From an uncultured Bacilli bacterium (lineage in GTDB: Bacteria > Bacillota_I > Bacilli_A > RF39 > UBA660): a DNA stretch of 59,969 bases. The notes under the pieces were generated by a model that was not told the DNA's origin, made no database searches, and was given only the letters and a program-made list of their open reading frames with translations. The stretch is from assembly GCA_944358535.1 (NCBI GenBank), contig CALVRH010000005.1:1-59969 (forward strand). The letters run 5' to 3'. Positions 1,651 through 59,969 of the stretch are shown here, piece by piece (the first letter of the stretch is position 1; each line of letters starts with the position of its first letter). Both the position numbers and the translations under genes were made by a program.

Positions 1651-2646
1651 ATGAGAATAAAATATTTTGATAATGCAAAAGGGATTTTAATTATATTTAT
1701 TATACTTGGACATGTTTTTAGTGCGTGCGCTGATTATTATGGATATGATGATAATTTTTATAAATTCTTTTCACTTTTTATGATTCAATGTTTTTTCTTT
1801 ATTTCGGCTTATTTTTCATCAAAAAGTAAAAGAGGTCAAAGAATTTTAAGTATGTTAAAGATTTATTTAGTGTGGCAAATGATTGTAACTATTTATTACT
1901 CTTTTGTTTTAAATATAATGAATTTTAGTTTTAATGTTTTATATCCTAGATATACTTATTGGTTTTTGGTAACAATGATTACATATTTAATTTTAGAGTA
2001 TCTATTTGATAAAATTAGTTATAATGTGATGATACCTCTTTCATTTATAATATCTTTGTTTATTGGTTTTATTCCATTTATTGGAGAATGGGCATCACTT
2101 GCTAGAACATTTACGTTTTTACCTTTTTATGTAATTGGTTTTTATGCGAAAGATTTAAAATTAATTGAAAAACTTCAAAGTGATAACTTTAAAAAGACAT
2201 TTATAGTTTTTTCAGTTTTGATACTTATATTGTCTTTTGTTTACGATGATATTTTACCTTTTAGGTTACTTCGAGGAAAATATAGTTATTATGAAATAAC
2301 AGGTGATTTATTAAGCGTATTTTTAAAGAGAATTATGTTTTATATATTTAGTATAATTGTTAGTATTACGTTTTTTAAGGTTATTTCTAAAAAGGAAACT
2401 ATCTTTACTAAAATAGGACAAAATACACTTTATATTTATTTGGTGCAGGGGGCTATTATGAAAACTTTGGTTACTTTGAATTTATTGCCGAGTAATATTG
2501 TTTTTGGTAATGTTTTATCAATATTTATTTTGATTATCTTTACGTTTGCTATAGCAAAATTTATTACTTGTTTTAAAAATATTATTAAAGAAAAGATTAA
2601 TGATATAATATGGATAAAAAAATTAAAGACAAAAATGGCATCCTAA
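1651..2646 (+). CDS. Membrane acyltransferase, acyltransferase-3 family
   Basis: 331 residues, mostly hydrophobic, with about ten membrane segments. The N-terminus has the family hallmark: YFDNAKG leading into the first helix, with the conserved His21 in ILGHVF. This family O-acetylates sugars or other envelope groups using a cytoplasmic acyl donor. The substrate is unknown; a fucose-4-O-acetylase-like (COG3594) member is the closest type by eye. A GAGAGGA ribosome-binding site precedes the ATG. The stop codon lies inside a terminator hairpin, so the gene is probably alone in its transcript. Confidence 0.8.
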   Translation: MRIKYFDNAKGILIIFIILGHVFSACADYYGYDDNFYKFFSLFMIQCFFFISAYFSSKSKRGQRILSMLKIYLVWQMIVTIYYSFVLNIMNFSFNVLYPRYTYWFLVTMITYLILEYLFDKISYNVMIPLSFIISLFIGFIPFIGEWASLARTFTFLPFYVIGFYAKDLKLIEKLQSDNFKKTFIVFSVLILILSFVYDDILPFRLLRGKYSYYEITGDLLSVFLKRIMFYIFSIIVSITFFKVISKKETIFTKIGQNTLYIYLVQGAIMKTLVTLNLLPSNIVFGNVLSIFILIIFTFAIAKFITCFKNIIKEKINDIIWIKKLKTKMAS

Positions 2647-2666
2647 ATGGATACCATAATTTTTCA
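2635..2666 (+). terminator. Terminator overlapping the acyltransferase stop codon
   Basis: ATGGCATCC-TAAAT-GGATACCAT stem with a T-rich tail. The stop codon TAA forms part of the loop. Confidence 0.75.
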
Positions 2667-2695
2667 CAATTTTATCAAATTTTTTCCATAAGTTA

Positions 2696-2804
2696 TTGGT
2701 ATGATTATTACAGAGTTAAGAAAGAACTCTAGAAGGATGTGATATATGATTAATTAGCTTTTTCTAAACTATACTCACGAAGCAGTTCTCACCACTGCTT
2801 TTTA
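2696..2804 (+). ncRNA. Candidate small RNA or mini-ORF transcript
   Basis: An extended -10 box (TGGTATGAT, 2697-2705) is followed by a perfect hairpin AGAGTT-AAGAAAG-AACTCT (2712-2730). An AAGGATGTGAT ribosome-binding-like stretch leads to a three-codon ORF (ATG ATT AAT TAG, 2746-2757). A terminator (AGCAGT...ACTGCT plus T-run, 2781-2804) ends the unit. The result would be a transcript of about 95 nt. It does not match a family I recognise. Confidence 0.4.
2781..2804 (+). terminator. Terminator of the small transcript
   Basis: AGCAGT-TCTCACC-ACTGCT hairpin followed by TTTTT on the plus strand. On the minus strand it lacks a U-run, so it does not serve tspO well. Confidence 0.7.
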
Positions 2805-3230
2805 ATTTAATAGATATACTCCAAATGAAAGATATGCGGCGAATATTAGCCATATTAAATATGGGGTGTTTATTAAACCTGATAATTTATTTACTTTATA
2901 AAATTCTTTTATCATAATAATGACTAAAATAATTAGTAAAATTATCCATATAAAGGAGAATAAATACCATTTAAAAACAAAGAAGAAAATAGACCATAAG
3001 CCATTTACTACTAACTGAGTATAGTAAATGGTTTTATTTTGCCCATCTTGTTTATAAAAGCTATAGCCCATAATAATGTATAAAATTGTCCAGATAATTG
3101 GAAAGATTATACCTGGAGGAGAAAGAGGTGGCTTATTTAGATCTTGATAGTTCATAAATGGATTTATAATTAAACCGATTATGCCACCCATAATTACAGG
3201 AATTAAAATATTTTTAATTAATTTTTGCAC
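2802..3230 (-). CDS. tspO: TspO/MBR family membrane protein
   Basis: 142 residues with five predicted membrane helices, the usual size for TspO (about 150-160). The family signature is clear: NKPPLSPPGIIFPIIWTILY near residues 32-51, then WSIFFFVFKW. Bacterial TspO proteins bind or degrade tetrapyrroles and are linked to stress responses. What this one binds is unknown. It is transcribed away from the two-component system, and the short gap 3231-3301 must hold promoters for both directions. Confidence 0.9.
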   Translation of the reverse strand: MQKLIKNILIPVIMGGIIGLIINPFMNYQDLNKPPLSPPGIIFPIIWTILYIIMGYSFYKQDGQNKTIYYTQLVVNGLWSIFFFVFKWYLFSFIWIILLIILVIIMIKEFYKVNKLSGLINTPYLIWLIFAAYLSFGVYLLN

Positions 3231-3301
3231 TTTATCACCAGTATTAATATATGTAATTAAAAATAATTTATAATTATGATATAATGAATTAGGTGATTCA
3301 A

Positions 3302-3967
3302 ATGCAGAAGATATTAATTGTTGAAGATGAAGTTAAGATTAGAGAAGAACTGACCACTTTTTTAAAAAATAATGGATATGAAGTTTTATTTATAAATAAA
3401 TTTGAAAATACTTTAGATGATATTTTGAAAAAAGATGTTGATTTAATTTTAATGGATATTAATATTCCGGGAATTAATGGAATGCATTTGTGCAGGGAGA
3501 TTAGAAAAGAGAAAAAAACACCAATTATTATTGTAACAAGTAGAAATAGTGAGATGGATGAGCTTATATGCATGAATTATGGGGCGGATGATTTTATAAC
3601 TAAACCTTATAATTTGCAAATTTTACTTGCTCATATGGAGGCTGTTTTAAAAAGAAGTAAACCAGAGGTTAGTCATGTTTTAGAATATGAAGGAATGAAG
3701 GTTAATTTGTCTAAAGGGGTTATTGAGTATAATGGAGAAAATGTTTTACTTACTAAAAATGAACTTTCGATTTTGGCTTATTTACTTGAGAATAGAGGAA
3801 AGGTTGTATCTCGTGATGATCTGATGAGTTATTTATGGGATAGTGAGATGTTTGTGGATGATAATACGTTAACAGTTAATATTACAAGGTTACGTAAGAA
3901 ATTAGAGGAATTAGGTTTTAGTGATGTTATTGAAACGAGAAGAGGATGGGGTTATATTATATTATGA
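3302..3967 (+). CDS. OmpR-family response regulator, BceR-like
   Basis: 221 residues from the chosen ATG, which has AGGTG seven bases upstream; a GTG at 3293 would overlap that ribosome-binding site. The receiver domain (1-115) shows the acidic pair in VEDE, the phosphorylated Asp52 in LMDINIPG and the conserved Lys in TKPYN. The C-terminal winged helix (about 125-221) ends in the typical RRGWGYII. The stop codon overlaps the kinase start (ATGA), so the pair is translationally coupled. With the kinase and the BceAB transporter downstream it should form a peptide-antibiotic sensing module. Confidence 0.92.
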   Translation: MQKILIVEDEVKIREELTTFLKNNGYEVLFINKFENTLDDILKKDVDLILMDINIPGINGMHLCREIRKEKKTPIIIVTSRNSEMDELICMNYGADDFITKPYNLQILLAHMEAVLKRSKPEVSHVLEYEGMKVNLSKGVIEYNGENVLLTKNELSILAYLLENRGKVVSRDDLMSYLWDSEMFVDDNTLTVNITRLRKKLEELGFSDVIETRRGWGYIIL

Positions 3968-6187: not shown

Positions 6188-8159
6188 GTTATCTATTAAA
6201 AACATCAAAAAAAGTTTTAAGGATTATGCAATATATTTTTTAACTTTGGTGCTTGGTGTAGCTATCTTTTATGTATTTAATGCACTTGATAGTCAAGAAG
6301 CTATGTTACAACTTACGGAAACTGAAAAAGAGATTATTTCACTTATGAATGAGTTTTTAAGTGGTGTTTCTATTTTAGTTGCGGTTATTTTAGGCTTTTT
6401 AATTATTTATGCAAGTAGGTTTTTGGTTAAAAGAAGGAAAAAGGAGTTTGGTATTTATCTTACTTTAGGTATGGGTAAGAGGCAAGTTTCAAAAATTCTT
6501 TTAATGGAAACATTGATAATTGGTTTTATTTCACTTGCTGTGGGTCTTGGTCTTGGAATTATTGCTTCACAGTTTATGAGTATTGTGGTAGCTAAATTAT
6601 TCGAAGCTGACATGTCTCGGTTTGAGTTTGTCTTTTCACAAGCTTCGATGTTTAAAACAGTGATTTATTATGCGATTATTTATTTAATAGTTATGGTATT
6701 TAATGTGTTTGCGGTTACTAAATATAAACTAATTGATTTACTTAATGCGGCTAAAAAAGGTGAAAAGATTAAGACACGTAATTTGACCATTTCTGTAATA
6801 TTATTTGTTATTTCAGTAGGGATACTAGGGTTTGCTTATTATTTAGCTACGCAAAGACTTGATAGTTTAGATTTATTTGGACTTTCTATATTACTTGGAA
6901 TTATTGGAACATTTTTGTTATTTTTCTCTATGTCAGGATTTATTTTGAAGTTAGTTCAAAGTAATAAGAAGTTATATTTAAAAGGTTTAAATATATTTAC
7001 TTTAAGACAGATAAACAGCAAGGTTAATACAACAGTATTTTCTATGAGTATTATTTGTTTACTTTTATTTTTTACAATTACAATTTTTTCATCAGCTTGG
7101 AGTATTAATGTAAGTTTAAAAAATGATTTAGTTTATGGAACTCCAGCTGATATAGTTATTGCATCTTATGCGGAAGAGACTAAAGATGTAAAGACAGATA
7201 TTTTAGATAAAGTAGGTTATAGCATGGATAACTTTAGTGGATATGCCAGAGGCAATACTTATGGATTTGAAAGCGTGACAGTGGGTAGTTTACTTACTCC
7301 AATATTAGATGATGTTTTAAAAAGTTACCCTTATTTGATGGTAGATAGTTATTTGCCAGTTATGAAAATATCAGATTATAATAAGTTTGCTTCATTTTAT
7401 GGAAGAGATACTTACAGTTTAAATGATGATGAGTTTATTTTGGTTGCAGATTATCCTCAAATGATAGAATATCAAAATATGGCTTTGGAAAAAGGTGTGA
7501 CTATTAAGATTGGTGATAAAGAGTACCATAATAAATATGATGAGTGCAAGGAAGGGTTACTACAAATGAGTGGTAATAAAACTAATACTGGTATTGTAGT
7601 GGTACCGGATAATGTAGATATTAGTTCAAATGAGACAATTAGAAGTTATTTGGCAGCTAATTATAAAGGTGATAAAAATAAAGCTGAAGAAAATTTAAGA
7701 GAATATATGGATGAGATAAATTCTAATGGGGCAGTAGCTGATACAAAGTTAGATATTTATACAGCTAGTACGGGTTTAAGAGCTATTATGATATTTATCG
7801 GTTTATATTTGGGAGTTATATTTTTAATTTCATCAGCAGCTATACTCGCTTTGAAAGAATTATCTGATAGTAGTGATAATAAGGAAAAATATCAGATGTT
7901 AAGGCGTATTGGTGTAGATGATAAAAAATTAAATAGAGCTTTATTTACACAAATATTTATATTCTTTATGTTCCCGCTTGTAATTGCTATTATTCACTCA
8001 ATATTTGGCATAATGTGTGCGAATACGATTATGGAAAGTATGAGTGTGACTAGTAATATGACTTCAATACTTGGAGCGGCATTACTTATTGTTGTTATAT
8101 ATGGAGGATATTTTATAGTTACTTATACGACAAGTAAACGAATTATAAATGAAAAATAA
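6174..8159 (+). CDS. BceB-type ABC transporter permease
   Basis: 661 residues with about ten membrane helices in the BceB layout. There is one N-terminal helix, a block of paired FtsX-type helices (about 55-310), a large extracellular domain of some 220 residues (about 315-540), and a final FtsX block (about 540-650). The FtsX motif KRRKKEFGIYLTLGMG is seen near residue 90. The large outer domain is what distinguishes these drug-sensing permeases from ordinary FtsX proteins. A GGAGG site lies within the end of the ATPase gene. A terminator follows directly. Confidence 0.92.
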   Translation: MMLFKLSIKNIKKSFKDYAIYFLTLVLGVAIFYVFNALDSQEAMLQLTETEKEIISLMNEFLSGVSILVAVILGFLIIYASRFLVKRRKKEFGIYLTLGMGKRQVSKILLMETLIIGFISLAVGLGLGIIASQFMSIVVAKLFEADMSRFEFVFSQASMFKTVIYYAIIYLIVMVFNVFAVTKYKLIDLLNAAKKGEKIKTRNLTISVILFVISVGILGFAYYLATQRLDSLDLFGLSILLGIIGTFLLFFSMSGFILKLVQSNKKLYLKGLNIFTLRQINSKVNTTVFSMSIICLLLFFTITIFSSAWSINVSLKNDLVYGTPADIVIASYAEETKDVKTDILDKVGYSMDNFSGYARGNTYGFESVTVGSLLTPILDDVLKSYPYLMVDSYLPVMKISDYNKFASFYGRDTYSLNDDEFILVADYPQMIEYQNMALEKGVTIKIGDKEYHNKYDECKEGLLQMSGNKTNTGIVVVPDNVDISSNETIRSYLAANYKGDKNKAEENLREYMDEINSNGAVADTKLDIYTASTGLRAIMIFIGLYLGVIFLISSAAILALKELSDSSDNKEKYQMLRRIGVDDKKLNRALFTQIFIFFMFPLVIAIIHSIFGIMCANTIMESMSVTSNMTSILGAALLIVVIYGGYFIVTYTTSKRIINEK

Positions 8160-8183
8160 TCAGAGTTATCTGGTTATTTTTTT
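8155..8183 (+). terminator. Terminator of the BceAB-type operon
   Basis: AATAATCAGA-GTTA-TCTGGTTATT hairpin followed by TTTTT. It overlaps the permease stop codon. Confidence 0.8.
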
Positions 8184-8208
8184 GTGTAATAGTTTTTTTA
8201 ATTTTAAG

Positions 8209-8250
8209 AGGAATTTTGATTTTTTTGACGTATGTTTATATATAAAGGGG
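8209..8250 (+). promoter_or_regulatory. Promoter element shared with the one at 44994
   Basis: TTGATT (8216-8221), 17-bp spacer, TATATA (8239-8244). The surrounding 42 bp differ from positions 44994-45035 at only about four places, including the spacer, which a sigma factor alone would not conserve. Confidence 0.6.
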
Positions 8251-8267
8251 CTTAGAAAGGGATTTTT

Positions 8268-8381
8268 ATGAAATTAATTAAGATAAATTTTTTTAAGACG
8301 ATTTTGTTCGATTATGGAATATGTTATAAAAAGGTTAATGGTAAGATTATTGTTATAGGTTTTTATAAAAAAGTATTTTAA
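8268..8381 (+). CDS. Possible 37-residue basic small protein
   Basis: ATG with GAAAGGGA upstream, 37 codons, rich in Lys, Ile and Phe (starts MKLIKINFFK, ends YKKVF). It sits just behind a good promoter in the 306-base gap between the bceB-like gene and deoD, and would otherwise be an empty leader. It is too short to assign. The rest of the gap holds only the promoters for this ORF and for deoD. Confidence 0.4.
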   Translation: MKLIKINFFKTILFDYGICYKKVNGKIIVIGFYKKVF

Positions 8382-8407
8382 ATAATATATTGTTTTTGGT
8401 AAGAAAA

Positions 8408-8436
8408 TTGATTATTAAATAAGGCTTTGTTATAAT
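8408..8436 (+). promoter_or_regulatory. Sigma-A promoter of deoD
   Basis: TTGATT (8408-8413), 17-bp spacer, TATAAT (8431-8436), 30 bases before the deoD start. Confidence 0.7.
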
Positions 8437-8465
8437 TTATTTAGATAGAAAAGGAGGGTGGTAAT

Positions 8466-9179
8466 ATGACACCACATAATAATGCGAAAAAAGGGGAAAT
8501 TGCAAAAACAGTAATTATGCCTGGAGATCCGATGAGAGCAAAATATATTGCGGAAAAATATTTGGAAGATTATAAACTTGTAAATGATGTTAGAGGAATG
8601 TATGCTTATACTGGATTATATAAAGGAAAAGAGGTTACGGTTATGGCCCATGGTATGGGTATGCCTAGTATAGGAATATATTCATATGAGCTTTACAAGT
8701 TTTATGATGTTGAGGAAATTATTAGAATTGGCTCTTGTGGAGCTTATTTAAAGGAGATGAAACTTTTTGATATCATTTTGTCAACGGCGGTTTATACTGA
8801 AAGTAGTTTTGCTCTTACTTTAAATAATGATTTATGTCATATAGCTTATAGTGATGAAGATTTAAATATTAAAATTGGGAAAGTGGCTTATAAAAATGAT
8901 ATAAAATTATATCGTGGTATGACAGCTTGTTTAGATTGTTTTGATGTTTATATGACTGATGTTAATAAATTTTTTGAAAGGATGCCTAAAGGTGTTGAAC
9001 CGATTGCGGCAGAGATGGAAGCTTTTGCTTTATTTTATATTGCTAAAATGCTTGGTAAGAAAGCGGCTTGTTTAATGAGTGTTGTTGATTCTAAGTATAT
9101 TAAAGAGGTGGCTTCGGCAGAGGAGAGAGAAAAAGGTTTAGATAAAATGATAAAACTTGCTTTAGATTCGGTTTTATAA
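8466..9179 (+). CDS. deoD: Purine nucleoside phosphorylase, DeoD type
   Basis: 237 residues, the normal DeoD length. It splits purine (deoxy)nucleosides with phosphate into base and (deoxy)ribose-1-phosphate for salvage in the cytoplasm. Visible motifs are the phosphate-binding PGDPMRAK (19-26), the GMGMPS loop, RIGSCGA, and EMEAFAL near the ribose site. The catalytic Asp is kept in SVVDS, where the usual text is TVSDH. The C-terminal AEEREKGLDKMIKLAL matches the family. An AAGGAGGGTGG site makes the start secure. The M16 gene follows after 35 bases and may be co-transcribed. Confidence 0.95.
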   Translation: MTPHNNAKKGEIAKTVIMPGDPMRAKYIAEKYLEDYKLVNDVRGMYAYTGLYKGKEVTVMAHGMGMPSIGIYSYELYKFYDVEEIIRIGSCGAYLKEMKLFDIILSTAVYTESSFALTLNNDLCHIAYSDEDLNIKIGKVAYKNDIKLYRGMTACLDCFDVYMTDVNKFFERMPKGVEPIAAEMEAFALFYIAKMLGKKAACLMSVVDSKYIKEVASAEEREKGLDKMIKLALDSVL

Positions 9180-15134: not shown

Positions 15135-16037
15135 ATGAAAGAAAAAATAAAGAAAAACTTAATAGGATTTGTATTAGGAGTAATAACAGCAATTAGTATA
15201 AGTGTAATTGCAGCCACATATTTTCCATCTAATGATGTGACATATGATAATAAAGAAAGTGGACTTGAAAGTACCAATGTACAAGGAGCAATAGATGAAC
15301 TATATGGAGTATGTACAGCAGAACCTCCAGCAGGTGAACAAATAATAGAAGATAATGGATTAGAAAAAGATCCATATGAATGTAGATATTTCTTTACAGG
15401 TGCCAACCCCAATAACTATATAACCTTTAATGGAGAGCCTGCAGGCTGGAGAATTATTTCTGTAGGTTGTGATGGAACTATAAAAATAATGAGAGATGAA
15501 AGTATAGGAAAAATATCATGGGATACATCTGGTTCAAATAATTGGGCAAGACCAGCCAGTTTAAATACATATTTAAATGGAACATATTTAAATAGCTTAA
15601 GTAGTGAAGCACAAGGTCAAATAGTTGCATCTGATTATAGTATAGGTGCAGTAACTCTTAATAATAATGATTTAGCGGGTCAAGTAAGTGCTGAAAATAG
15701 TACAACATGGAATGGAAAAATAGCCTTACCAACAGTAAGCGAATATTTAAGAACAAATTCCAATTCAAACTGTAAAACATATAGTACTTTTAATAGTAAT
15801 TATAGTACATGTAAAAATACGACATGGATGTATGATAATAATGATAATTGGTGGACCTTGTCGTCCAACGCCGGCCACTCTAGCACCGTGTTCTACGTGA
15901 ACTTTAGCGGCGACCTCTACTACTACTACGCCGCGAACGGTACGTTCTATGCGATTCGGCCGGTCGTTTATCTAAGCTCTGAGGTTAAAATCATAGGAGG
16001 AGATGGAAGTCAGTCTAATCCTTACACGATAGAGTAG
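15135..16037 (+). CDS. Exported C-type-lectin-like protein with a putative hypervariable C-terminus
   Basis: 300 residues. A signal peptide or membrane anchor covers about 8-27. A conserved linker (ESTNVQGAIDELY) leads to a lectin-like/DUF6273-type domain (about 85-300) ending in the family text RPVVYL. Codons 239-278 are strikingly different: positions 15849-15968 contain 69 G+C of 120 (57%), in a chromosome near 29%. Of codons 244-269, 20 end in C, and they encode Asn, Tyr, Ser, Gly, Asp, His, Thr and Phe. This is the pattern left when AAC codons of a template are mutated at A, as in variable regions of diversity-generating retroelements. No reverse transcriptase or template repeat is in the window. 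The GGAGGA site at 15123 fixes the start. Confidence 0.85.
   Translation: MKEKIKKNLIGFVLGVITAISISVIAATYFPSNDVTYDNKESGLESTNVQGAIDELYGVCTAEPPAGEQIIEDNGLEKDPYECRYFFTGANPNNYITFNGEPAGWRIISVGCDGTIKIMRDESIGKISWDTSGSNNWARPASLNTYLNGTYLNSLSSEAQGQIVASDYSIGAVTLNNNDLAGQVSAENSTTWNGKIALPTVSEYLRTNSNSNCKTYSTFNSNYSTCKNTTWMYDNNDNWWTLSSNAGHSSTVFYVNFSGDLYYYYAANGTFYAIRPVVYLSSEVKIIGGDGSQSNPYTIE
15849..15985 (+). other. Putative DGR variable region (GC-rich patch)
   Basis: An abrupt GC-rich block begins at the WW pair and ends after CGGCCGGTCG, which could serve as the GC-rich initiation-of-mutagenic-homing tail. Composition returns to AT-rich on both sides within a few codons. The encoded part is where lectin-fold DGR targets carry their variable residues. 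Confidence 0.6.
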
Positions 16038-16111
16038 ATGATACTTTTAAATAATGGTGTTATACATTATGTTAATGTAAGGATATAAGATAGGGTTTTG
16101 CAAAATGATAA

Positions 16112-16138
16112 AAAAGTGACCTTTTGGTCGCTTTTATA
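16112..16138 (+). terminator. Terminator downstream of the surface-protein gene
   Basis: AAAAGTGACC-TTTT-GGTCGCTTTT hairpin with T tail. Apart from this and the promoter of the next gene I see nothing in 16038-16278. Confidence 0.75.
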
Positions 16139-16278
16139 GTGAAGGAATATTTATATAGTGTTTAAATATAAGAGCTTAGTTTAAAATAGGTTAATTTGAT
16201 GGAAAATTTCTATTCGACATAACTTTACATTTTTTTTATATTTTGATATCATTGTATAAGATAAGAGGGTGCACTTAT

Positions 16279-16845
16279 ATGAAGAAGTCTTTAACAATAA
16301 TTGGAGTAGTTATTATAATTATTGCTATTATATTTATTTGCGCTTGGATATGGGCTAAAGGTTTAAAAGAAGATACAGCAGCTACTAAGAAAAAAATGGA
16401 TGAAGTATTAGAGGCTTATCCTAAATTTAATGAAGAGGTTGATAAGTTTTCTACTTTAAGAAATGAACTTTATCAAAATAAAGAAAATTTGTATTTAGAG
16501 ACGCTTAGGGATAATGCTTCTACTTGGAATACTTTTATTGATAATTATAAAGCTGAAATTATGAAAGTTGAAGAAACTGCAAAAATACTTAAGGAAAACT
16601 GTGATTTAGAGTATGGAGATGTGAATGTAAGTTCAAAATGCACAACTTTTAAGGCTAATTATGAAGCGGCCCATAATTATTATATAAGTGATGTTAAGAT
16701 GTATAATGAGATGGTTAAAAATTATGAAGAGTATAATAGGGAACATGGTAATCAATATAGTACAGTTAATGAGGCAACATATGGGCCTTATACTGATTAT
16801 ATAGATTATGATAAAGATGGAGAATACTTTGGGAAAGAGGGGTAA
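16279..16845 (+). CDS. Membrane-anchored extracellular protein of unknown function
   Basis: 188 residues from the ATG at 16279, which has GAGGGTG upstream. One N-terminal membrane helix (about 5-25) is followed by a mainly helical, charged outer part with a coiled-coil look (about 30-150). Two Cys in the outer part (ENCDLE and SSKCTT) could form a disulphide. The C-terminus is Tyr/Asp-rich. I recognise no family. It lies six bases before the NAGPA-like gene, so the two are an operon and probably act together at the cell surface. Confidence 0.75.
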   Translation: MKKSLTIIGVVIIIIAIIFICAWIWAKGLKEDTAATKKKMDEVLEAYPKFNEEVDKFSTLRNELYQNKENLYLETLRDNASTWNTFIDNYKAEIMKVEETAKILKENCDLEYGDVNVSSKCTTFKANYEAAHNYYISDVKMYNEMVKNYEEYNREHGNQYSTVNEATYGPYTDYIDYDKDGEYFGKEG

Positions 16846-16851
16846 TCTTAA

Positions 16852-18159
16852 ATGAAAGATGAAGAGATAGAAGTATTATTTGAGGATGATGAAGATATTG
16901 AGTTAACTAGAAAGAGAAAAGAAAATGAAAAATCTAAGATTAATGATGAGGAAGAGTTTGTTAAGGACCCATCTTTAGATAATGTTTTTCCTGATAAAGA
17001 TGATGTGCAGATTGATAGGTTATTGAATGAGTTTGAAGAAGTTAGTAATGATAGTACTGAAGAAAATAATAAAGTATCTTTAGAAGAGATTTCATCAGAA
17101 GAAAATAATAAAGTAAAAGAAAAAAATAAAAAAATGAAATTATGGCAAATAATTTTAGTTATAATAATTTGTTTAGCTTTAATAGTTGGATCTGGACTTG
17201 CATTTTTACTTTATGGACCATATCCTAATTTTAGAAACTGGCTTATTACAACAGCAATGACAACTATGAGTCATAAGTATTTAGCTACTTGGTTTTATGA
17301 CGATGAGACAATAAATGCGGTTATGCAAGATAATTATGTTAAAGAGTCTTCAGAGGATGTCGATTTAAATGCAATTAGTTTTGTTGATTACAGCAATTCT
17401 AAAGTGATGTATAAAAATAAATATGAAAAAGAAATATTGACTCATGATGAGGGGGATATTTATAAGTTAATTAATATTAATGGTGATGGGCTTAGAGGAT
17501 ATTTAATTGCAATATATGATCCATCTAAAGTTAAAGTAGCGACTGCTTCTAATATGAATAGCAGCGGGGAAATGCTTACAACGATTGCAGAGAAAAACAA
17601 AGCGATTGTGGCAATAAATGCGAGTGGTTTTTATGACCCTGGTTATCATGGTAATGGTGGAAAACCACATGGGGCAGTTATTCAAAATGGTCAGATTGTT
17701 AGTAATTTACCTAAATCAAATGTCGGTGGAGGTATTATTGGTTTTACTCAGGATAATAAATTTATTATGGGTAAGATGACGGCTTCAGAAGCTTTAGCTA
17801 AAGGTGTGCGTGATGCGGTGGAGTTTGGACCATTTTTGATTGTTAATGGAGAACCATCTTTTATTAAAGGTAATGGTGGCTGGGGAACAGCACCAAGGAC
17901 AGCTATTGGTCAGAGAAAAGATGGGATTGTATTATTTTTAGTTATGGATGGTCGTGATTATGTTCATGGTATTGATGGTGTTGGAATGACAGAACTTACG
18001 GAAATACTTATGAATTATGGGGCTTATAATGCGGCGAATTTAGATGGTGGAACGTCTTGTGGGTTAGTTATTAATGGTAAACTTACAAATCAGCCGATAA
18101 ATGGTAGTGGTAAAAAAGCGACTAGAGCTATTCCTAATGCTTGGATTGTAACTGAATAA
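16852..18159 (+). CDS. Membrane-anchored phosphodiester glycosidase (NAGPA) family protein
   Basis: 435 residues. A long acidic cytoplasmic tail (1-95) precedes one membrane helix (about 98-120). The outer domain (about 215-435) is of the NAGPA/PF09992 type. It shows AIVAINASGFYD, PHGAVIQNG, TAIGQRKDGIVLFLVMDGRD and NLDGGTSCG. Bacterial members are thought to cleave phosphodiester-linked sugars, for example in exopolysaccharide or teichoic acid metabolism. The cytoplasmic tail is unusually long and could bind a partner. It forms an operon with the preceding gene. Confidence 0.88.
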   Translation: MKDEEIEVLFEDDEDIELTRKRKENEKSKINDEEEFVKDPSLDNVFPDKDDVQIDRLLNEFEEVSNDSTEENNKVSLEEISSEENNKVKEKNKKMKLWQIILVIIICLALIVGSGLAFLLYGPYPNFRNWLITTAMTTMSHKYLATWFYDDETINAVMQDNYVKESSEDVDLNAISFVDYSNSKVMYKNKYEKEILTHDEGDIYKLININGDGLRGYLIAIYDPSKVKVATASNMNSSGEMLTTIAEKNKAIVAINASGFYDPGYHGNGGKPHGAVIQNGQIVSNLPKSNVGGGIIGFTQDNKFIMGKMTASEALAKGVRDAVEFGPFLIVNGEPSFIKGNGGWGTAPRTAIGQRKDGIVLFLVMDGRDYVHGIDGVGMTELTEILMNYGAYNAANLDGGTSCGLVINGKLTNQPINGSGKKATRAIPNAWIVTE

Positions 18160-18218
18160 ATATTTTGATTTTATAGACATATATTTACATTAGAGAAATA
18201 TTTTTAAAGTTATGTTTA

Positions 18219-18243
18219 GTACTATTTGTTATAATAATAGTAC
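18219..18243 (+). promoter_or_regulatory. Palindrome over a -10 box
   Basis: Perfect arms GTACTATT (18219-18226) and AATAGTAC (18236-18243) enclose TATAAT (18230-18235) in front of the DUF3048 gene. A repressor bound here would block the promoter. Confidence 0.5.
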
Positions 18244-18263
18244 AAAGGTAAGGGGGAATGGTT

Positions 18264-19316
18264 ATGGCCAGAAGACGGAAAAAAAGTAAGAAAAAATTAT
18301 GGATTGTTTTATTTATTATTTTGATATTGGCTTTATTTGGAGTTTATTATTGGTATAATTCTGATGAAGTTAAGGATTATGTATCTGATAAGATAAAGAT
18401 AGAAAAAAAGTTAAAAATTGTCGATGAAGATTCTAAAAGTAGGCCTATTGCGGTAATGATTAATAATAATCATGTAGCTTGGCCTCATGCAGGACTTCAG
18501 GATGCGTATATTACATATGAAATTTTAGCTGAGGGTGGAATTACGCGTTTAATGGCTATATTTAAAGATAAGGATACATCAAAGATTGGTTCTGTTCGAA
18601 GTGCGCGTCCTTATTATTTGGATTATGCTTTAGAAAATGATGCAATTTATGTTCATTATGGCTGGAGTGATCAAGCTAAAAAAGATATTAGTTCGCTTGG
18701 GGTTGACAATATTAATGGACTTACTGTTTCTAGTGTTTTTTGGCGTGATAAGTCTTTAAATAAAGCTACTGAACATACTGTTTTTACTAGCATGGAAAAG
18801 ATTAAAGAATATGCTAAAGAAAAAGGTTATGACCGTGATACTAATAAGGATTTACTTTTAAATTACAGTGTTGATGAAATTGATTTAAGTAAAAGAGAAG
18901 ATGCGGTAAAAGCCGATACAGTATTTATGAAATATTCATATTATACTAATAGTAGTTATGAATATGATAGTGAAAATAAGGTTTATAAGCGTTTTATGTC
19001 TGGTACAGCACATGTAGATGCAGTTACTGGTGATCAATACACTTATAAAAATATTATTATTACACCAATTGAAACACATGCTTATGACTCTTACGGTAGA
19101 TTGGAACTTGATGATGTTGGATCAGGTGATGGATATTATATAACTGATGGTTATGCTATTCCGATAAATTGGTCTAAAGCCAGCCGAAGTAGTCAAACTG
19201 TTTACAAAAATATGGATGGTGAAGAGATAAAAGTTAATGATGGAAATACTTTTATTCAAATCACTCCACCTTCTGAAAGTATTGATATTAAAGGAAATAC
19301 TGAGGAAGATGCATGA
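18264..19316 (+). CDS. DUF3048 (YerB-like) membrane-anchored protein
   Basis: 350 residues from the ATG at 18264; the ATG at 18258 is too close to the AAGGGGG site. A basic N-terminus and one membrane helix (about 12-31) precede an outer DUF3048 domain. Family text is clear: RPIAVMINNNHVAWPHAGLQ, AEGGITRLMAIFKD, GSVRSARPYYLDYA. The B. subtilis homologue is YerB, a lipoprotein of unknown role; here the anchor is a helix with no lipobox. It belongs with the envelope genes around it, but its function is not known. Confidence 0.88.
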   Translation: MARRRKKSKKKLWIVLFIILILALFGVYYWYNSDEVKDYVSDKIKIEKKLKIVDEDSKSRPIAVMINNNHVAWPHAGLQDAYITYEILAEGGITRLMAIFKDKDTSKIGSVRSARPYYLDYALENDAIYVHYGWSDQAKKDISSLGVDNINGLTVSSVFWRDKSLNKATEHTVFTSMEKIKEYAKEKGYDRDTNKDLLLNYSVDEIDLSKREDAVKADTVFMKYSYYTNSSYEYDSENKVYKRFMSGTAHVDAVTGDQYTYKNIIITPIETHAYDSYGRLELDDVGSGDGYYITDGYAIPINWSKASRSSQTVYKNMDGEEIKVNDGNTFIQITPPSESIDIKGNTEEDA

Positions 19317-19327
19317 AATTAGCCAAT

Positions 19328-19356
19328 TTGTAATTTATTTATAAATGTGGTATACT
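19328..19356 (+). promoter_or_regulatory. Sigma-A promoter of the HD hydrolase gene
   Basis: TTGTAA (19328-19333), 17-bp spacer, TATACT (19351-19356). Confidence 0.65.
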
Positions 19357-19382
19357 GAATAGGTACTTTGAGGTGAAATATA

Positions 19383-19889
19383 ATGAGTAGTCATAAAAAA
19401 GACTTACAATATATGAGTATAGTTAATAATATTTTAGATAATAAAGAGTTTTTAAAAATTAAAACAATAGAACATCATGGAATAAGTAGATATGATCATT
19501 CTTTGAAGGTATCTTATTATTCTTATAAAATTGCGAAGATATTACATTTAGATTATGAACAGACTGCAATTGGTGGTTTGCTTCACGATTTCTTTTTGAG
19601 TCCTGAGGATAGGTCGCAAAAAGAACGTATAGCTTCTGTGTTTACTCATCCTAAGCAAGCAGTTTCTATGGCTAAATCGCAATTTAATCTTACAGCTAAG
19701 GAAGAGGATATGATTAGATCACATATGTTTCCAATCAATTTATCTATTCCAAAGTATGCAGAGAGTTGGATTGTAAGTATGGTTGATAAATGTGTTGCTA
19801 CTAATGAATTTGCACTTAAGTTTAGGTTTAGATTAAAATATGCATATAATTTATTCTTATTATTTGCAATTAGTATTATGAAAATTTAG
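19383..19889 (+). CDS. HD-domain phosphohydrolase
   Basis: 168 residues. The metal-binding HD pattern is complete: His in RYDHSLKVS, the HD pair in GGLLHDFF, a later His in DMIRSHMFP, and Asp in VSMVDKCV. Such single-domain HD proteins hydrolyse nucleotide or other phosphate esters in the cytoplasm; no substrate can be given. A C-terminal hydrophobic stretch (LFLLFAISI) is present. It ends just before a terminator and tRNA-Arg. Confidence 0.85.
   Translation: MSSHKKDLQYMSIVNNILDNKEFLKIKTIEHHGISRYDHSLKVSYYSYKIAKILHLDYEQTAIGGLLHDFFLSPEDRSQKERIASVFTHPKQAVSMAKSQFNLTAKEEDMIRSHMFPINLSIPKYAESWIVSMVDKCVATNEFALKFRFRLKYAYNLFLLFAISIMKI

Positions 19890-59876: not shown

Positions 59877-59969
<93 letters not shown>

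Follow-up and report, generated by a model that had tools for sequence, protein, structure and literature searches.

The window analysed here is a 59,969-bp stretch of DNA from a MAG (G000) of 1.33 Mb that comprises 55 contigs and is 90.5% complete. At positions 15135..16037 of the + strand lies an open reading frame for a 300-residue DUF6273 protein, which matches PF19789 over residues 116-281 in a profile search (E = 1.2e-9) and which we assign to the group-B targets of a DGR. Its hydrophobic N-terminus (MKEKIKKNLIGFVLGVITAISISVIAATYFPS; 15135..15227, +) is a signal or anchor helix that spans residues 4-22 in the structural model, and suggests that the protein is secreted or membrane-anchored at the surface. 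A C-type-lectin-like domain, delimited by a structural match to 9qa6, occupies 15339..16034 (+; model residues 68-300). Within this domain, paralogue alignment and codon-position differences define a GC-rich variable region (VR) at 15849..15966 (+), followed by a constant C-terminal tail that is conserved in paralogues (VVYLSSEVKIIGGDGSQSNPYTIE; 15967..16037, +). A hairpin read from the sequence 3′ of the gene (16111..16134, +) is probably an ordinary terminator.

An earlier note on this DNA had singled out the GC-rich patch at 15849-15968, and that patch is real. It holds 69 G+C in 120 bp, and nowhere else in the window is the GC content as high: 120-bp stretches with this count occur only within 15847-15969, the best elsewhere reaches 58, and the maximum in second-order Markov simulations of the window (n = 40) was 56. 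The patch is therefore not a product of chance. The coding sequence around it has a GC content of 30.8% before the patch and 39.1% after it. The note's codon count also stands, as 20 of the 26 codons 244-269 end in C versus 16 of the first 238, and the RPVVYL text that it had associated with lectin-type DGR targets is present near the C-terminus as AIRPVVYL. VR codons are of the NNC or NNT type and are flanked by the constant codons TGG TGG ACC TTG TCG on one side and GCG ATT CGG CCG GTC on the other.

The predicted fold agrees with the lectin-like character that had been proposed for the protein. The AlphaFold model, made with 10 sequences, has a mean pLDDT of 61.6 and drops below 50 in the VR itself, which it places on a low-confidence beta-hairpin near the C-terminus (strands 251-257 and 260-265). 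VIA-align superposed 186 residues (Z 11.8, rmsd 3.4) on the N-terminal domain of the Thomasclavelia ramosa IgA peptidase 9qa6, a domain described by its authors as C-type lectin-like (PMC12237041). Foldseek listed only this N-terminal domain for the model, and DGR targets such as Mtd or TvpA did not appear among the listed matches; a PDB sequence search with the protein gave no match. The structural and PF19789 matches support a predicted C-type-lectin-like fold, in which the VR takes its usual C-terminal place. The protein probably binds ligands while anchored at the surface, and would present the variable hairpin as its contact face.

The target gene belongs to a large family. There are 50 DUF6273 matches to the window protein in G000, of which about 40 are near full length and align over 65-100% of its length. 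At least 14 paralogues share the GC-rich C-terminal patch and its constant non-A frame, and others are AT-rich there; a demonstrable VR is clear in five genes of class A and about ten of group B, not in all of the approximately 40 family members. Per codon pair, the paralogue alignment shows 0.41, 0.39 and 0.21 differences at the first, second and third positions in the VR, versus 0.11, 0.10 and 0.17 in the scaffold. In the tail (15967..16037), paralogues differ mostly at codon position 3. Among paralogues of the window gene, hypervariation is seen in the VR only, and there at the first and second codon positions.

This pattern bears on the alternative raised in the earlier note, in which the patch is a cassette from a GC-rich foreign donor, or else an oddity of codon bias. 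The one point in its favour is the high GC content of the patch. The same GC-rich constant codons recur in many G000 paralogues and in template repeats (TRs) of congeners, however, and the non-A frame is common to about ten paralogues, whose differences fall on template adenines and on the first and second codon positions. Searching viral contigs with the window protein as query found no relatives, and the TR-VR comparisons described below refute a donor cassette for sibling genes; for the window gene we consider it very improbable. A DGR explains the composition differently: the patch would be GC-rich because its template combined C-ending AAC codons with constant GC-rich ones, the adenines were replaced, and the host gene is AT-rich.

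Neither a reverse transcriptase (RT) nor a TR was found in the window, in agreement with the earlier note, and the note's expectation that an RT would be found elsewhere in the genome proved correct. G000 has three RT genes, all outside the window contig, on contigs C42, C21 and C33. The C42 gene, a group II intron maturase, was rejected as a DGR RT. On C21 there is a DGR locus that consists of a target gene, a TR, a small gene, an avd frame and an RT. This RT (351 aa; 7082-8134, -) has the xGxxxSQ motif of DGR RTs as GLPIGGLSSQ and the YxDD site as RYMDD, and its best matches are PHROG 1423 and PDB chain 8ub7, which we take to be the BPP-1 RT complex. The avd frame upstream of this RT (L012 8140-8440) matches the class-A Avd of relatives and contains an in-frame stop here, with intact copies in the relatives, and the small gene, at the place of the MutS_I-like gene, has no clear Pfam match. 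The TR that accompanies this RT lies at about 9025-9150 (-).

Four VRs on four contigs can be compared with this template. The C34 VR differs from it at 15 of 30 template adenines and at 0 of 71 other positions; the corresponding counts are 14/30 and 1/71 for the VR at C7:50882, 15/30 and 3/71 for that on C22, and 14/30 and 4/71 for the cis VR on C21 (pooled A versus non-A differences of the three VRs on other contigs, Fisher p = 4e-23). Down to the single base, one template accounts for the VRs of four contigs. The coding flanks of the C34, C7 and C22 genes show 81-93% identity among themselves and with C21, with no long identical tract, and the tails after their VRs are 58-87% identical. Because the flanks differ by 7-19% while the VRs fit the TR, these VRs were written from the template and not carried by long gene conversion. 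We regard these comparisons as showing, on sequence grounds, that the C21 template wrote sibling genes in trans on three other contigs. Both checks by which the earlier note could have been refuted came out in its favour: an RT exists in the genome, next to a TR, and the variation in sibling genes is A-specific.

A competing account holds that gene conversion, starting from a few cis targets, is the main way in which VRs spread, with no retrohoming at the window locus. Some observations speak for it: C14 and C21 share approximately 827 identical bp that include the whole VR, a tract that is the product of gene conversion or duplication; a further VR, at C7:27463, seems to be pieced together from two VR types; and on C31 (L019 690-1226) the 5′ half of a TR continues as VR-type sequence. 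As a general explanation it is unlikely, since the C34, C7:50882 and C22 VRs, set between divergent flanks, agree with the TR at 68-71 of the 71 non-A sites, and each carries A-site changes of its own.

On sequence comparison, the window VR belongs to a second group of VRs, group B. It differs from the nearest group-B TR at 17 of 34 adenines and 14 of 69 other positions and is one codon longer. When six group-B VRs of G000 were pooled and compared with a composite TR, assembled from a G000 half-copy and a G026 sequence, there were differences at 102 of 202 adenines and 30 of 418 other positions (p = 2e-33). The exact TR of the window VR was not found. An A-tolerant IUPAC pattern search of G000 returned only the VR itself and poly-A runs, and an ungapped A-tolerant scan with no limit on A content was uninformative because of such runs. 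The inferred window-type TR had no exact match in 44 congeners, where the closest template, in G002, was 83% identical.

Parts of a group-B DGR are present in G000. The RT is represented by an N-terminally truncated DGR-type fragment on C33 (L013 5306-5996) with a YQDD site. A GC-rich patch beside the fragment was rejected as a TR, being a tRNA-like sequence. Group-B TRs survive as half-copies near contig ends, one being the C31 copy described above and the other lying on C11. Two sister species, G002 and G019, have an intact group-B DGR in which the TR, a MutS_I-like gene, Avd and RT stand in a row. The G002 TR differs from two VRs of the same genome at 18 and 20 of 36 adenines and at 1 of 66 other positions in each case. 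In G019, Avd (PF22296, PHROG 3206) and MutS_I (PF01624) adjoin the RT, and bAvd is intact; the MutS domain I-like protein beside Avd and RT is small (L113 4658-5068).

We consider it very probable that the patch is a DGR variable region, written in trans by mutagenic retrohoming with a group-B template as its source, and a DGR origin of the window VR is near certain. In this mechanism an error-prone RT would copy RNA transcribed from an AAC- and AAT-rich template repeat, misincorporating at template adenines, and the mutated cDNA would replace the 3′ part of the lectin-type gene in trans. The source of the window VR would be a group-B template that has been lost, has diverged or was left unassembled. 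Trans retrohoming is seen for the sibling genes and the sister species, and we infer it for the window gene from sequence likeness to these; the trans DGR reading proposed earlier is accordingly supported one step less firmly for this gene than for its siblings.

Whether the window gene is still being written is a separate matter. There is close to an even chance that its VR is a leftover, written by a DGR in an ancestor whose group-B RT and TR then decayed or were lost, such that the gene is now an ordinary one. The truncated RT on C33, the half-copy TRs, the 14/69 non-A differences, the missing downstream hairpin (see below) and a frame that has kept clear of stops are consistent with such a history, and Treponema denticola strains without an RT or TR keep target genes of this kind (PMC4891356). 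On the other side, the MAG is approximately 90% complete, TR loci, being repeats, are prone to loss or breakage during assembly, and both half-copies lie near contig ends; absences in G000 are weak evidence because the MAG is in 55 contigs. In addition, the VR at C7:27463 shares the distinctive 5′ half of the window VR, with differences there almost only at codon positions 1 and 2. We give a leftover state and a missing piece of assembly about equal weight for this gene.

Hairpins follow some of the target genes. Cis-type group-B genes carry, 27-31 nt past their stop, a hairpin with an 8-bp stem and a 4-nt loop, and a hairpin of the form CAAACTCC-loop-GGAGTTTG occurs after several sibling VRs and is absent after the window gene. 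Nor was this hairpin seen behind class-A trans genes with a fit to the C21 TR, so its absence after the window gene does not decide between the readings.

TRs also occur apart from RTs. In G002, cassettes on C4 (L115 3680-4170) and C1 (L116 3150-3650) comprise a target gene and, after it, a conserved block with a hairpin and then a complete TR, which runs into the 3′ end of a target gene; no RT is nearby. The TR core is identical among the three G002 TR copies. The simplest reading is that these RT-less cassettes arose by TR-VR recombination.

The DGR mechanism itself is already known, and multiple VRs per TR are common (PMC6642488). The Bordetella phage BPP-1 DGR has bRT, Avd and a hairpin downstream of the VR (PMC3240598); the systems described here resemble it in RT family (8ub7 closest), Avd, A-specific writing and a similar hairpin after cis group-B VRs, and differ in the extra MutS domain I-like gene and in many trans targets, several of them without a hairpin. 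DUF6273 proteins with a C-terminal VR are described phage DGR targets, in Faecalibacterium prophages (PMC11792537) and as tentaclins (PMC10743442), with the same Pfam domain and a lectin-type fold. Those phages carry one or two per cassette, whereas the present family is bacterial, dispersed and about 40 strong per genome.

Remote targets have precedents in bacteria. In T. denticola, one RT/TR locus serves 2 to 7 scattered TvpA-type targets with a lectin fold (PMC4891356), but these belong to the FGE-sulfatase domain family, are far fewer and are found in a spirochaete. Thiohalocapsa PB-PSB1 has nine DGR loci, some of them incomplete, and 15 targets for which trans activity is inferred from evidence of diversification (PMC10907252); its targets are joined to conflict-system domains and are intracellular sensors, unlike the apparently anchored surface proteins here. 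The dispersed target-type genes of G000, approximately 40 in 1.33 Mb, exceed the seven of T. denticola and the 15 of Thiohalocapsa.

To our knowledge, trans-writing DGRs have rarely been inferred, mostly with a handful of targets. The family size is unusual, and less ordinary features are the large dispersed family, the VR-hairpin-TR cassettes that lack an RT and the recombinase element inserted in TRs (see below). We tentatively suggest, as a wider and rather doubtful possibility, that in this genus of gut Bacilli, whose genomes are reduced, DGRs serve as a system of genome-wide antigenic variation. Each cell would then hold tens of scattered lectin-type surface genes and two or more trans-writing RT/TR sets, with VR-hairpin-TR cassettes spreading between targets without an RT and a tyrosine-recombinase element inserting at the TR. 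Population sequencing of these gut Bacilli could show how many remote genes one DGR diversifies, and with what host-associated benefit.

Several further features of these genomes were observed. In at least three species, DGR template-type repeats are interrupted at the same point, after AACGTGTT or AACGTCTT, by an inserted element with tyrosine recombinases (PF00589). Sites of the element or the repeat are L114 1589-3090 (G019 C18), L117 100-160 (G026 C67), G000 C11 1-105 (L025) and L302 100-300 (G007 C7). In G019, the element end and TR bases form a 36-bp palindrome, and the exact 20-bp core of this palindrome is confined, within the genus, to three genomes and in each of them to a template-type repeat. 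The neighbours of the G026 element are orthologues of window genes at 16243-19889. Long A or T runs stand at the end of the window (about 59907-59969) and at ends of C20 and C48, and are probably an assembly artefact. Named loci of the same genus come from MAGs of uncultured Bacilli, Tenericutes or Erysipelotrichaceae, with isolate names that suggest animal gut. Finally, DGR parts of two classes lie directly upstream of rpsF, on C21 of G000 (L012 about 7007-9150) and on C1 of G002 (L116 about 2500-3650), and this site is possibly a shared landing place of DGR parts in the two species.
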